From assembly GCA_001023575.1 (NCBI GenBank), contig CP011489.1, positions 1,177,001-1,241,000 on the forward strand: a stretch of 64,000 bases of DNA. The letters are read 5' to 3'. This document shows, in pieces, positions 5,254 to 10,115 of the stretch (position 1 is its first letter; every line of letters begins with the position of its first letter). Both the position numbers and the translations under genes were made by a program. The notes beneath the pieces were generated by a model. The model was not told the origin of the DNA. It was given only the letters and a program-made list of their open reading frames with translations, and made no database searches. This stretch comes from Actinobacteria bacterium IMCC26256 (GTDB lineage: Bacteria; Actinomycetota; Acidimicrobiia; IMCC26256).

Positions 5254-5901
5254 CTACTTGGTCCGCAGAATGGCGATCTTGCCGAGAATGGTGCGGCGAG
5301 CACGTGTTGATCGTTCGTATTCTTCTACGTCGTTTAGTTCTTCCGGGTTGAGGCCCTCGAGCCGCTCAATAATCTGGCTCGCCGCTAACCCGTCATAATC
5401 TGGGATCGAGAGAATCCCTGGCTGCATTGGGCTTGAGTCGGTCTCCGGAGTACTCGGTTCATTAATCGATTCGGAAATTGGTGCCATGCTCGGCGCTGAA
5501 TCTTCCTTCGCTGGCGCTTCTTTGCTCCTCGCCTCGAGATTCTCAGTGACGTGAGGGCCAGCGCCTGAAGAGCACATGTCGGAGAGGCCGGAGTATGCCT
5601 TCGAGGATGCCGAGAATGACTCGAAGGCTTCGATGCTTTTAGCTCGTAGAGTGACCATCTGCTCGTTTACCCGCTGCTTTACAACAGGCGGCCCAAATTT
5701 AACCGCCAACTCACCTACTGCTTTGTAGTTCGCTATTTGGCCAACTACCTCGCGTTGATGTACATCTACCTCGCGCTTGCCTCGTCCAGCGAACATTGTT
5801 ACGAGTGTGGGTACTGCATCTCTAGCGAATGCAGCGATGCCCACGGGAACATGTACTGCTAACTCAACTACTCGATCAACTGTGCTGCGTTCGTCACTCA
5901 C
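5254..5901 (-). CDS. uncharacterised protein with conserved C-terminal IPDYD motif
   Basis: This is a 215-residue protein of unknown function. I place the start at GTG 5901, behind AGAGGAG; the gene then overlaps the end of lnt by 8 bases, which indicates coupling. The N-terminal half is amphipathic and could associate with membranes or lipid surfaces (VHVPVGIAAFARDAVP). The middle is a Ser/Pro/Glu-rich linker. The C-terminal 50 residues form a compact module: IPDYDGLAASQIIERLEGL, then a helix ending YERSTRARRTILGKIAIL. This end resembles that of actinobacterial proteins annotated as lipid-droplet associated, but the likeness comes from memory and is not a firm assignment. Confidence 0.7.
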   Translation of the reverse strand: MSDERSTVDRVVELAVHVPVGIAAFARDAVPTLVTMFAGRGKREVDVHQREVVGQIANYKAVGELAVKFGPPVVKQRVNEQMVTLRAKSIEAFESFSASSKAYSGLSDMCSSGAGPHVTENLEARSKEAPAKEDSAPSMAPISESINEPSTPETDSSPMQPGILSIPDYDGLAASQIIERLEGLNPEELNDVEEYERSTRARRTILGKIAILRTK

Positions 5902-7486
5902 TGGAGTCTCCTCTACTGGGCATACTCTGCAGTCTACGGCGAAGTAGGCCAAACGCCACAGCCGCAATCAGGATCGTGGCTGAGATCTCTACTATTAACG
6001 GTCCATGCTTCACATACGGGGTCTCCCCTGCACGAAGAGGAACCTTTGTCTCGATAATTGCAGGCTTGAATAGCTCAGTTCTCTTCTCAATATGGCCCCG
6101 TGGGTCGATAATGGCAGAGATTCCAGAGATTGAGGCCTGTACCAATGCCCGACCAGTCTCCGCAGCTCTCATCTGTGATGACTGCACATGCTGCGCGCTA
6201 TTCGCGCTGCGGCGGTAGGAGCGATTATTGGTTGAGACAATAAGTGCCTCCGCTCCGTCACGGACCTCTCGTCGTGCAAGCTCAGGGAATACCGACTCGA
6301 AACAAATAAGACTCCCAATTTTCTTGCGGTCGAGATTAAGGACGCCTGAGTTTGAAGCGTTGTTCTGACCAGCAGTGAAGTCTTCTGGTACCTGATCAAT
6401 TGCAGATATAAAACTCAACTCAGAGCGCCAAGGCACATACTCCCCGAACGGCACTAGATGTCTTTTGGAGTAATTCGCTACTAACGAACCATCGGGTGCG
6501 TATAGGCGATTCGTATTGTAAATGGCGCCTTCTTGTTCGCGATTTATTGCATTGATAAGTACAAATGAATTATGGCGCCTCGCAGTAGCGACAATTCTTG
6601 ACATGAGTAGTGGGTCTGCCTCAGGGTCGCTCATAAGCGCAGACTCTGGGAAAATAATTAGGTCGTAGTCTCCCGTTAATTGGCCAGCCAGATCAAAGTG
6701 CTTCTCCGTGAGCACTTGGTTAGAAATCTCATCTGAGCTCAACATTCTGTTGAGATCGTTCCCCTGAATGGCAGCAATCTTTAATGCTCCTACCTCACGC
6801 GTTGTCGGAGGATTGAGCCCGGCAGCAAGGAAGATCAGAACTAACAGCGCAGCTACTCCTAAATGGATTCGGTGAGATTGAAGGCGGTGAGAATGGAGGG
6901 CGTGAGCGCCTCTCCCCTCCCCGCCTGCCACTGCTGCCCCACGCCTAGTGGCCTTGAGTAGTACTTCAAGCAACACTGCCTGAGAGAGAACCACCGCAAA
7001 GGTGACCCCTAGAGCACCTGCCCAGGCGGCTAACCCGCGCGCCGGCGTGAAAGGAGACATGGCGGTACCAACCTCTCCCCATGCCAGCCCCCCTAACGGC
7101 CAAGTCCCTCGCAGATACTCGCCAAGACTCCACGCCGCAGCAACGATTAACGGCGATGAGGTTCCGAGGCGACGTATCGCTGCGATACCGCTGCCTACCG
7201 CCGCTACGTAGAGGGCTTGAGTCGCAACGAGCGGGAGAATTGCTACCGCCCCGAAATACCATGCCCATGAGAGAACGACTCCGAAAAAAAGCACTCCGAA
7301 TACGAAGCCACTCCAAGCTGCCCGCCAAATTGATGCGCTGCTCCAGACCCAGAGCAATGGCAGTAATGCGACGATCGCAAACGGCCAGGCACCAATGGGC
7401 GGGAACGCGCATGCCATGAAAAGCCCAGATAGAGCAGAGGCTATGAATGCAATACGCGCGTTAGGTGCGAGCACAGACCTCTCCAT
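5894..7486 (-). CDS. lnt: apolipoprotein N-acyltransferase
   Basis: This 530-residue membrane enzyme N-acylates the N-terminal cysteine of lipoproteins. About 200 residues of membrane helices come first, then a carbon-nitrogen hydrolase domain outside the membrane. The catalytic triad is visible: Glu in IIFPESALM, Lys in YSKRHLVPFGEYVPW and Cys in SLICFESVFPE. STNNRSY after the Cys matches the usual substrate-side loop (in most relatives N-D/N-x-W/F). A last membrane helix closes the protein. Its stop overlaps the GTG of the next gene by 8 bases. No polyprenol-phosphate-mannose synthase is fused, unlike some mycobacterial forms. Confidence 0.93.
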   Translation of the reverse strand: MERSVLAPNARIAFIASALSGLFMACAFPPIGAWPFAIVALLPLLWVWSSASIWRAAWSGFVFGVLFFGVVLSWAWYFGAVAILPLVATQALYVAAVGSGIAAIRRLGTSSPLIVAAAWSLGEYLRGTWPLGGLAWGEVGTAMSPFTPARGLAAWAGALGVTFAVVLSQAVLLEVLLKATRRGAAVAGGEGRGAHALHSHRLQSHRIHLGVAALLVLIFLAAGLNPPTTREVGALKIAAIQGNDLNRMLSSDEISNQVLTEKHFDLAGQLTGDYDLIIFPESALMSDPEADPLLMSRIVATARRHNSFVLINAINREQEGAIYNTNRLYAPDGSLVANYSKRHLVPFGEYVPWRSELSFISAIDQVPEDFTAGQNNASNSGVLNLDRKKIGSLICFESVFPELARREVRDGAEALIVSTNNRSYRRSANSAQHVQSSQMRAAETGRALVQASISGISAIIDPRGHIEKRTELFKPAIIETKVPLRAGETPYVKHGPLIVEISATILIAAVAFGLLRRRLQSMPSRGDSSE

Positions 7487-7542: not shown

Positions 7543-8007
7543 TTACGCGCAGTCTCTGCAGCGTTCCTTCTGCCCAGATGCAAGTTGACTGAGTGGCAAT
7601 ACCAAGAAGCACGAGTCGCATAAGAACTCGTCGTCTCCTCGCGGCTTCACCTTGTTGGTGCCCTCGACTCGATCTGCCTCGCTCTCAGCGTCCTCAAGGT
7701 CTTCATCCTCGGGGCGATCGCTAGTCGTCTTCTCCTTGAGAAGAATATCCAGCGATGCCTCTACGTCATCGGGGTGGAGTTCATCCTCAAGGACCACAAC
7801 TGTTTGATCATCGTCGTCATCGAGTTCGTCGTCTGTGGAGACATCAGCGGGATTGTCGTCTACGCCCTCAATCGCCAACAGGTCATCATCGAGTGGAGAG
7901 TCAATTAACGGATCGGCCTCATCATCGAGTTCGTCCTCAATCTCATCGCCATCGAGTTCATCGTCGGTCTCGAGTTCGTCTTCTGGGTCTATTACATCTT
8001 TAGGCAT
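7543..8007 (-). CDS. DUF4193-type acidic protein with C-terminal zinc ribbon
   Basis: This is a 154-residue protein. I choose the ATG at 8007, behind GGAAG. Residues 1-110 are almost all Asp, Glu, Leu and Val with runs such as DDELDGDEIEDELDDE, so this part is probably disordered and strongly negative. The last 30 residues hold two CxxC pairs (CDSC and CRDC), a likely small zinc site. This layout fits the actinobacterial DUF4193 family, usually about 100 residues; the acidic part here is longer. Function is unknown. A TATATT box on the minus strand at 8075-8080 could be its own promoter, and upstream lies the structured RNA at 8105-8352. Confidence 0.8.
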   Translation of the reverse strand: MPKDVIDPEDELETDDELDGDEIEDELDDEADPLIDSPLDDDLLAIEGVDDNPADVSTDDELDDDDDQTVVVLEDELHPDDVEASLDILLKEKTTSDRPEDEDLEDAESEADRVEGTNKVKPRGDDEFLCDSCFLVLPLSQLASGQKERCRDCA

Positions 8008-8104
8008 GTTCACTTCCGGGGTGGAGGGGCGCGCAACATAACACGCAGAGGGAGCAGAATCGCGCAGGGCAGGCAATATATGGCGGAAAACCTAAAATAA
8101 GGCC

Positions 8105-8352
8105 CCAATGCAGTCTCGGTCGGGGGGGTATCAGCGGTATCAGGCCAATAGGCCCGTGATGGCTGATGGCGTGGCTTCGGGACTCAGATACCCTTGGGGT
8201 CACCGCCTCATCTTCTCGGCGTCTCCGTCAATCAATGAGCACAGCGTTCTCTGCTGGGTATCTGAATCCCGTTGCCTAAGCCTTCTTCGATCGGCCTCCG
8301 CTCCAGCGAACTGGAATTGACCCCGACCGGGCCCTCGCTCACAACTGCAAGC
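8105..8352 (-). ncRNA. candidate structured RNA (6S-like rod) in a 0.5-kb gene-free region
   Basis: The gene-free interval 8008-8513 holds nested inverted repeats. The outer arms 8117-8125 and 8321-8329 pair perfectly over 9 bp. Inside, 8173-8177 pairs with 8278-8282 (5 bp) and 8179-8193 pairs with 8256-8270 (15 positions). The one mismatch in the 15-bp helix on the plus strand (C-A at 8183/8266) becomes G-U in a minus-strand RNA, so minus is favoured. A side hairpin at 8302-8315 reads UCCAG-UUCG-CUGGA on minus, a UUCG tetraloop. The opposite side of the central bubble has 8136-8143 against 8163-8170. A promoter lies just upstream. The closing stem, wide bubble and long apical stem recall 6S RNA, but I cannot match a known family. 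A long leader of the DUF4193 gene is the alternative. Confidence 0.5.
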
Positions 8353-8358
8353 AGGTGC

Positions 8359-8387
8359 ATTACACCCCATTAGCCGCTAATAATCAA
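8359..8387 (-). promoter_or_regulatory. sigma-70-like promoter for the structured RNA
   Basis: On the minus strand TTGATT (8387-8382) and TGTAAT (8364-8359) are separated by exactly 17 bases. The -10 differs from TATAAT at one position and the -35 from TTGACA at two. The start would fall near 8352, just before the 5' arm of the outer helix. The spacer contains the palindrome TTAGCGGCTAA, a possible regulator site. Confidence 0.5.
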
Positions 8388-8513: not shown

Positions 8514-10115
8514 TTAGACGCCTGTGGAGCGACGAGCGGCGGCAGCGCGTTCAGATGCGAGACGCTCGAGTTCGTAGACCCCGTAATCAACGTATGACAT
8601 GGCATCGGCAATCGCCGCGTGCCCCGCCTGCTCTTTTATGAGGCGATGCATATGCTGTACGACTGTCCTGTATGCAGCATGGCCTTGGGGTCCGCTGCGC
8701 AACTCGAGCATATGGAATGCTTCGCGTGCGTTGAACTGCATAACGAAACGAATTCGATATGCGAGAGAGACTGCATAGGAGGACTGCTCTGGAAAACGCA
8801 GAGCCATGGCGCCATGGAGTGCAGCTGATCGCTCCATCGCCTCGGTAAATTCGCGCTCCGCTCCGGCCTCTACTACCGCCTCGGGTAGATCAAATCCATG
8901 CAGCGGTGTTAGGGGTTGCCATTCGATAGTCAACATTCGGTGTCGCTGTAAATCGCGAAATGCTCCGTAATCAGCGAGTACATCGAATCTGTAATCGGTC
9001 CGCTCAAGAGCGCGCCCGGGCTTATGGCGCCGATTATTGCGCTCCCCTACATATGCGGCCAGCAATTGACGGCGGTCCTCCGCTCCGAGGCTGCGCACTC
9101 GATGCAGAACTTCATCCTCTGGCAGGTTTGATACGGGGTAGAGGATCGCTGCAAGTACCTTGTCCTCGCCCTCCGGATCGAAGTCGACAAGTGTCACTCC
9201 AGGCCTATCTTCTGGCTCCATGCGACCGAGGATTCGGTTTGCAACGCTCTGGGTTTGCTCGCGCGTATCCATCAGATACTGAGACCATGCACCTCCCCTA
9301 TCTGGGCGATCTACGCGTGTTAAAAAGGAAGGAATAACCTTGCGCAACTCAGTGAGCATCAACTCTGAATACTCGCGTGCCTCTGGTAGCGGGTGAGCGC
9401 GCATCTTTAGTAGAAGAGATTCGTAGGCCTGGCCAGTTCCGTAGATGCCTACATTAGAGAGAGTCCCGGCTGGGAGTATCCCTCTTACTGCATCACATGC
9501 TTTTGCCTTGATGGTTTGCTTGTAGACAAAATCGGGGTCACCAGGGTCCTTTGGGTAACGCTCGCGGGCCCACTCCATCATCCTCGGGAGTAGCTGCTGG
9601 TAAGTCGCAAAGAGTCGATCCATCTCAGCTACGTAGAGCGCCCCAAGCGGCGACTCAAGTACCTCGGGAGGTCGTAGATAACGGAATCTCCCTCCGAGTC
9701 GAGAGTCGTATGGAATGTACCGAGTCGATTGCTCTAGGTACGCCATCAATCGTCCCCACTCGAGGACTTTGGTGAGAATATTTGAAGCCTGCTCACACGC
9801 GAGATGCACTCCACCTAGTTGCGCCACAGAGTCATCGCCGTACTCAAGGAATACTTTGTCGTATAAGGCTTCCGCTCGTTTAACCCCGACACTCGCGTCG
9901 ACTGTGATGTCTCCCGAGAGATCAAGTTCGACGGCAAACTCATCTAGGAATAGCCGCCGAAGACTCTTCTCCGAGCGGGAATAACGTGCAAACAATGCTC
10001 CCTTGACGACCTCTGGGAGATTTACGAGGGCGAAGACGGGGCCGTCAATATTCGTGAAGTATGGGCGCAGGGCCGTGGCTTCATCTGAGGTGAATTGCTC
10101 TGCGACGTACTGCAT
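8514..10115 (-). CDS. ThyX-like protein with two flavin-dependent thymidylate synthase domains
   Basis: This 533-residue protein is made of two ThyX-like domains. ThyX makes dTMP from dUMP with FAD and methylenetetrahydrofolate, and its signature is RHRxxSxNExSxRY. In domain 1 the aligned stretch reads WGRLMAYLEQSTRY (residues 120-133): the EQSTRY end is kept but RH is lost. In domain 2 it reads RHRMLTIEWQPLTP (from residue 391): RHR is kept but the end is lost. The halves thus keep complementary parts of the signature. Whether it makes dTMP is open; a noncanonical or pseudo-enzyme role is possible. It lies downstream of the lipid-kinase-domain gene, 97 bases away. Confidence 0.75.
   Translation of the reverse strand: MQYVAEQFTSDEATALRPYFTNIDGPVFALVNLPEVVKGALFARYSRSEKSLRRLFLDEFAVELDLSGDITVDASVGVKRAEALYDKVFLEYGDDSVAQLGGVHLACEQASNILTKVLEWGRLMAYLEQSTRYIPYDSRLGGRFRYLRPPEVLESPLGALYVAEMDRLFATYQQLLPRMMEWARERYPKDPGDPDFVYKQTIKAKACDAVRGILPAGTLSNVGIYGTGQAYESLLLKMRAHPLPEAREYSELMLTELRKVIPSFLTRVDRPDRGGAWSQYLMDTREQTQSVANRILGRMEPEDRPGVTLVDFDPEGEDKVLAAILYPVSNLPEDEVLHRVRSLGAEDRRQLLAAYVGERNNRRHKPGRALERTDYRFDVLADYGAFRDLQRHRMLTIEWQPLTPLHGFDLPEAVVEAGAEREFTEAMERSAALHGAMALRFPEQSSYAVSLAYRIRFVMQFNAREAFHMLELRSGPQGHAAYRTVVQHMHRLIKEQAGHAAIADAMSYVDYGVYELERLASERAAAARRSTGV

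Follow-up and report, generated by a model that had tools for sequence, protein, structure and literature searches.

The window, i.e., the whole 64,000-nt stretch of the Actinobacteria bacterium IMCC26256 genome analysed here, probably encodes a stand-alone, trans-acting small RNA that would dock a protein and would represent an undescribed family of Actinomycetota, although this statement as a whole is a reading of sequence. The existence of a covarying RNA family is practically certain, and the RNA very likely forms a transcription unit separate from the gene that follows it. Computation supplies the covariation of the structure, the conservation of the promoter sequence, a separate promoter box for the next gene, a recurrent gene order, the absence from Rfam and the co-occurrence with 6S RNA.

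All parts of the locus lie on the minus strand. The predicted transcript of about 255 nt spans 8098-8352; both ends are inferred, the start from the position of the promoter and the end from a T-rich TTATTTT (8100-8094) that might act as a weak terminator. The promoter consists of a -35 box TTGATT (8387-8382) and a -10 box TGTAAT (8364-8359) separated by 17 nt, a spacing kept in genomes G003 and G001. The RNA would begin with a small hairpin, GCUUGC-AGUU-GUGAGC (8337-8352), mostly invariant in three members of the genus. It is followed by a 5' domain (8288-8329), a CGGUCGG...CCGAUCG hairpin found both in the free-energy fold and in the genus consensus, whose cap is the CCAG-UUCG-CUGG hairpin (about 8314-8303). 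The conserved core hairpin of the family (8177-8273) scores 65.4 bits with covariance model R2 and 57 bits with R3, which matches nothing else in the window. Its outer stem (helix 1) is a 15-bp helix of GGGAUUCAGAUACCC (8256-8270) with GGGUAUCUGAGUCCC (8179-8193), including a pair that is G-U on the minus strand. The internal loop is formed by AGCAGAGAA (8247-8255) and ACCCCAA (8194-8200), columns that are near-invariant across the phylum with the consensus RAGUAGARAA and GCCCCAAM, from which the loop of the window deviates slightly. The inner helix (helix 2 of alignment A7) and a variable terminal hairpin occupy 8201-8246. The 15-bp helix with its G-U pair, the UUCG hairpin, the promoter and a TATATT box belonging to the next gene had been pointed out in a preliminary description of this region, and all of them are present as claimed.

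That box (8075-8080) is the putative -10 element of the DUF4193 gene (7543-8007), which encodes an acidic protein with C-terminal CxxC pairs. The gene scores 24.8 bits with PF13834, against a cut-off of 25, and passes the DUF4193 family search run across the order. The next gene downstream is lnt (5894-7486; PF20154 and PF00795), encoding an apolipoprotein N-acyltransferase and assigned with the help of synteny. Upstream lies a gene with a ThyX domain (8514-10115; PF02511), the usual upstream gene in Acidimicrobiales; its product of 533 aa contains two Thy1 stretches.

The minus strand folds with -113.2 kcal/mol versus a mean of -85.3 for shuffled sequences (z = -5.81; reached by 0 of 200 shuffles), and the plus strand is less extreme. 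The covariance models score 129.6 bits on the minus strand versus 29.6 on the other, and many pairs turn into G-U, which would be A-C on the opposite strand; thus, the minus strand is the RNA strand. The preliminary description had enclosed the molecule in a 6S-like closed rod by a 9-bp helix of CGGTCGGGG and CCCCGACCG (8329-8321 with 8125-8117). These sequences exist, but they compete with a local 5' hairpin (8329-8323 with 8294-8288), which is the choice of the free-energy minimum for 8105-8352 and which RNAalifold keeps in all three aligned members of the genus. When the fragment is extended slightly, to 8098-8352, the predicted fold does include a long closing stem. Such a stem is not evident in relatives from other families, which have a 5' hairpin and then a hairpin whose stem often runs into T's; where a terminator is visible in them, the RNA ends just past the main stem. 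The closed rod was rejected because the genus alignment favours the local hairpin, so that the closing stem, if it forms at all, is confined to this genus, and we read the predicted architecture as a 5' hairpin followed by the core hairpin.

Covariation, on which the preliminary description had staked its structured RNA, is strong, and the claim stands. At the order level (27 sequences), 94% of the alignment cells pair and both sides change in 19 of the 28 pairs; none of 500 shuffles, which ignore the relatedness among the sequences, reaches any of five measures. With the partner shifted by one column, pairing falls to about half, a control that is biased towards the scored structure since this was drawn by hand from the same sequences; the both-side changes are independent of that bias. 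Helix 1 is 98.1% paired, with both-side changes in 10 of its 14 pairs. Across the phylum (40 sequences), 91.2% of the cells pair, 16 of the 19 pairs show both-side changes, and the cells with such changes amount to 178 versus 45.6 in shuffles of the same kind (0/500 as high). Helix 2 of A7 is 99.4% paired, and the C-G pair that opens it is found in 40 of 40 sequences. The outer stem is free to vary, as are the terminal loops, whereas the loop RAGUAGARAA / GCCCCAAM and the next C-G pair are almost fixed, and so are the dimensions of the internal loop. The consensus of the aligned core is GGGGUCCAGGAGACC-AAGUAGAGAACG-CUG-GAAUAA-CCCG...CGGG-CCAAA-CAG-UGGCCCCAAC-GGUCUCCUGGACCC. At locus L027, an insertion seems to extend the inner helix, with complementary letters gained on both sides. 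Readings of the loop as a kink-turn or a sarcin-ricin motif, compared by eye and from general knowledge, did not fit.

Among 61 related genomes, only two of three congeners yielded the region in a DNA search, at 85% and 79% identity, and the third carries a diverged copy between the same genes. The first covariance model, R1, built from four sequences, gave matches in 67 of 247 genomes of the class (E up to 1), the strong ones being nearly all from Acidimicrobiales. The universal model R3, built from 40 sequences, matched 95 of 396 Actinomycetota genomes (E up to 0.1), or 84 by hand count at E up to 0.001. Homologues are thus spread over many families of Acidimicrobiales and other lineages of Actinomycetota, including genomes that we call Streptomyces-like on the basis of gene order and protein families; copies in Nonomuraea were found by an exact pattern. 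A scan of 84,980 bacterial and archaeal genomes, which serves as a partial control for specificity outside Actinomycetota, places this pattern in 61 contigs, of which only two are clearly non-actinobacterial; both are from Firmicutes and read as chance matches in protein-coding sequence. The exact pattern GAGAACGC...GTGACCC, searched over the order, gave mostly chance matches. Several genomes, including G253, G373, G480 and G508, carry a second copy of the RNA at another locus; the second copy at L142 has GGTTGCTTGGGG before the core and no clear TTGACA nearby.

A separate transcription unit is supported by 31 homologues from Acidimicrobiales. Of these, 26 carry a perfect TTGACA before the RNA (1.8% in shuffles), and 29 have a TATRNT-type box between the RNA and DUF4193 (12% in shuffles); L093, whose DUF4193 gene is not next to the RNA, is one of the two loci lacking this box. 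In promoter scoring, the best two-box score averages 8.8 versus 7.0 in shuffles. The promoter scan did not flag the RNA promoter of the window itself, whose support comes from the homologues. Of 111 copies, near-identical ones included, 24 (22%) have a T-run after the stem, versus 0.9% of control stretches. In the window, a simple terminator scan did not flag TTATTTT at 8094-8100, and a terminator there would be weak. About four in five copies show no visible terminator, which counts against the stand-alone reading.

According to the mechanism that we propose, a sigma-70-type promoter would drive an RNA whose length varies between lineages from roughly 105 to 255 nt, with a 5' hairpin followed by a long hairpin that opens into a loop (about 10 x 8 nt) of nearly fixed sequence; in many species, the long hairpin would double as an intrinsic terminator. 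Once transcribed, the RNA would act in trans. A near-fixed loop inside freely varying stems suggests recognition by a protein or a ligand, and it fits a partner that reads a three-dimensional shape better than it fits base pairing with targets. Most likely, the rigid loop would serve as the docking site of a protein that the RNA would sequester or steer; alternatively, the loop could bind a small molecule.

It is possible, but unlikely, that this protein is RNA polymerase itself and that the RNA is a decoy like 6S or Ms1, in which stem, bubble and stem mimic an open promoter. The long stem with a central bubble resembles the description of Ms1 (PMC4191392), one bubble strand, UAGARA, looks like a piece of a -10 element, and the RNA lies close to rbpA, the gene of a polymerase-binding protein, in the Streptomyces-like genomes; moreover, RNAs of types other than 6S and Ms1, namely CoRP and scr0792, bind the polymerase in other actinobacteria (PMC11077062). 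However, the last T of the -10 element is replaced by A in the bubble, and the loop sequence is nearly fixed. In addition, the main text of the RIP-seq study of S. coelicolor names only scr3559 and scr0792 as polymerase-bound. Ten genomes (G259, G288, G310, G359, G379, G389, G418, G428, G466 and G555) hold an RF00013 6S on a contig different from that of the new RNA, and the Streptomyces-like genomes also have an Ms1 locus, where the model matches nothing but an ordinary hairpin that lacks the loop.

An improbable alternative to the trans-acting RNA is a cis-acting leader, attenuator or riboswitch-like, of a DUF4193-lnt operon. Most of Acidimicrobiales keep thyX - RNA - DUF4193 - lnt in this sequence and on one strand, with a ThyX-domain gene upstream in 28 of 31 loci and DUF4193 directly downstream, on the same strand, in 30 of 31. 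An acidic CxxC gene follows the RNA in 55 loci of the other sets, the arrangement amidohydrolase - RNA - DUF4193 - lnt occurs outside Acidimicrobiales, and the hairpin is terminator-like. Nevertheless, a leader would be co-transcribed with, and always found beside, one type of gene, and the sequences point elsewhere: the box of DUF4193 sits downstream of the RNA in 29 of the 31 loci, and several genomes carry second copies at other loci. Other genes follow the RNA in several lineages. Three Streptomyces-like genomes have the order amidohydrolase - RNA - GT2 - FxsA - RbpA, the RbpA gene being convergent, and we take this amidohydrolase-GT2-FxsA-RbpA order to match SCO1424 to SCO1421 of S. coelicolor. 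Solincola-type copies, which have a near-consensus promoter and a T7 tail, neighbour dapA and an FAD oxidoreductase, and Nonomuraea copies lie near polA, a PaaI-type thioesterase and a branched-chain amino-acid transporter, these neighbours being named by reading the proteins. In G009 (locus L093), the RNA is about 12 kb away from DUF4193. That locus also has a repeat of the 3' half of the RNA (GGCCCCAACGGTCTCCTGGATCCCTTGCC) immediately after the core. Since the downstream genes differ between lineages, the stand-alone RNA is preferred over the structured DUF4193 leader that the preliminary description had offered; of its interpretation, the evidence supports a structured RNA that has a promoter of its own, contains a bubble within a long stem and matches no known family, and supports neither the leader nor the 6S-like closed rod. 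DUF4193 is also present in Corynebacterium glutamicum, and thus it need not be the partner of the RNA. The constant DUF4193-lnt pair downstream of the RNA in many lineages could still reflect a cis role there.

Finally, a base-pairing sRNA regulating mRNAs is very improbable: base-pairing sRNAs typically have such a size and an intrinsic terminator, and the T-runs fit, but the most conserved bases lie in an internal loop of nearly fixed dimensions while the terminal loops are free.

A small RNA kept in many lineages of the phylum to which Streptomyces belongs, with strong covariation and a near-fixed loop, likely has a basic role. The family is described neither in Rfam 15 nor in the literature searched (SCO1423/1424 sRNAs, the motif letters and DUF4193), although individual Streptomyces copies may already be listed in the supplements of sRNA catalogues. 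In Rfam 15, nothing in the window passes the gathering threshold, and permissive E-values for the region brought up only chance eukaryotic families, none of them fitting; as a consequence, genome annotation misses this RNA. The Streptomyces-like homologues would bring genetics within reach, provided that a named model strain proves to carry the RNA.

Like 6S RNA (RF00013), the new RNA would be a small stand-alone molecule with an internal bubble in a long stem and a sigma-70-type promoter. It differs in its loop and in the absence of the conserved 6S segments CCUGAGCC, CACCCACCUG and GGUUCAA; bubble and inner stem are present, but the closing stem is not conserved. The comparison with Rfam 6S suggested in the preliminary description gave no RF00013 match at the gathering cut-off in the window, in its own genome or in the homologue loci. 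A search with the 6S model over the own genome and the phylum led us to reject identity with 6S. In 90 of 396 Actinomycetota genomes (e.g., L264 and L265), a 6S RNA does score above the RF00013 cut-off; to our knowledge, 6S has been described in the literature as missing from Actinobacteria.

The new RNA shares with Ms1, scr3559 and MTS2823 its actinobacterial origin, the long hairpin, the central bubble and the small side hairpins, as described for Ms1 (PMC4191392). The Ms1 locus adjoins a HAD-IB hydrolase (PMC9130861), whereas that of the new RNA, thyX or amidohydrolase - RNA - DUF4193/lnt/ppm, has no such neighbour. In three Streptomyces-like genomes, the Ms1 locus, located via TIGR01490, is separate from the RNA locus, and R3 finds there about 16 bits of plain hairpin in which the loop motif is absent; identity with Ms1 was rejected on both counts. 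CoRP of Corynebacterium is likewise an actinobacterial structured RNA, but it measures 516 nt, sits between tRNA genes and has close homologues only in Corynebacterium (PMC11077062). One actinobacterial genome can thus hold the new RNA plus 6S or Ms1, and we tentatively suggest, at somewhat less than even confidence, an ancient and widespread class of Actinomycetota RNA that would differ from 6S and Ms1, exist beside them and have its own biochemical role, its new loop motif binding a protein or a ligand.
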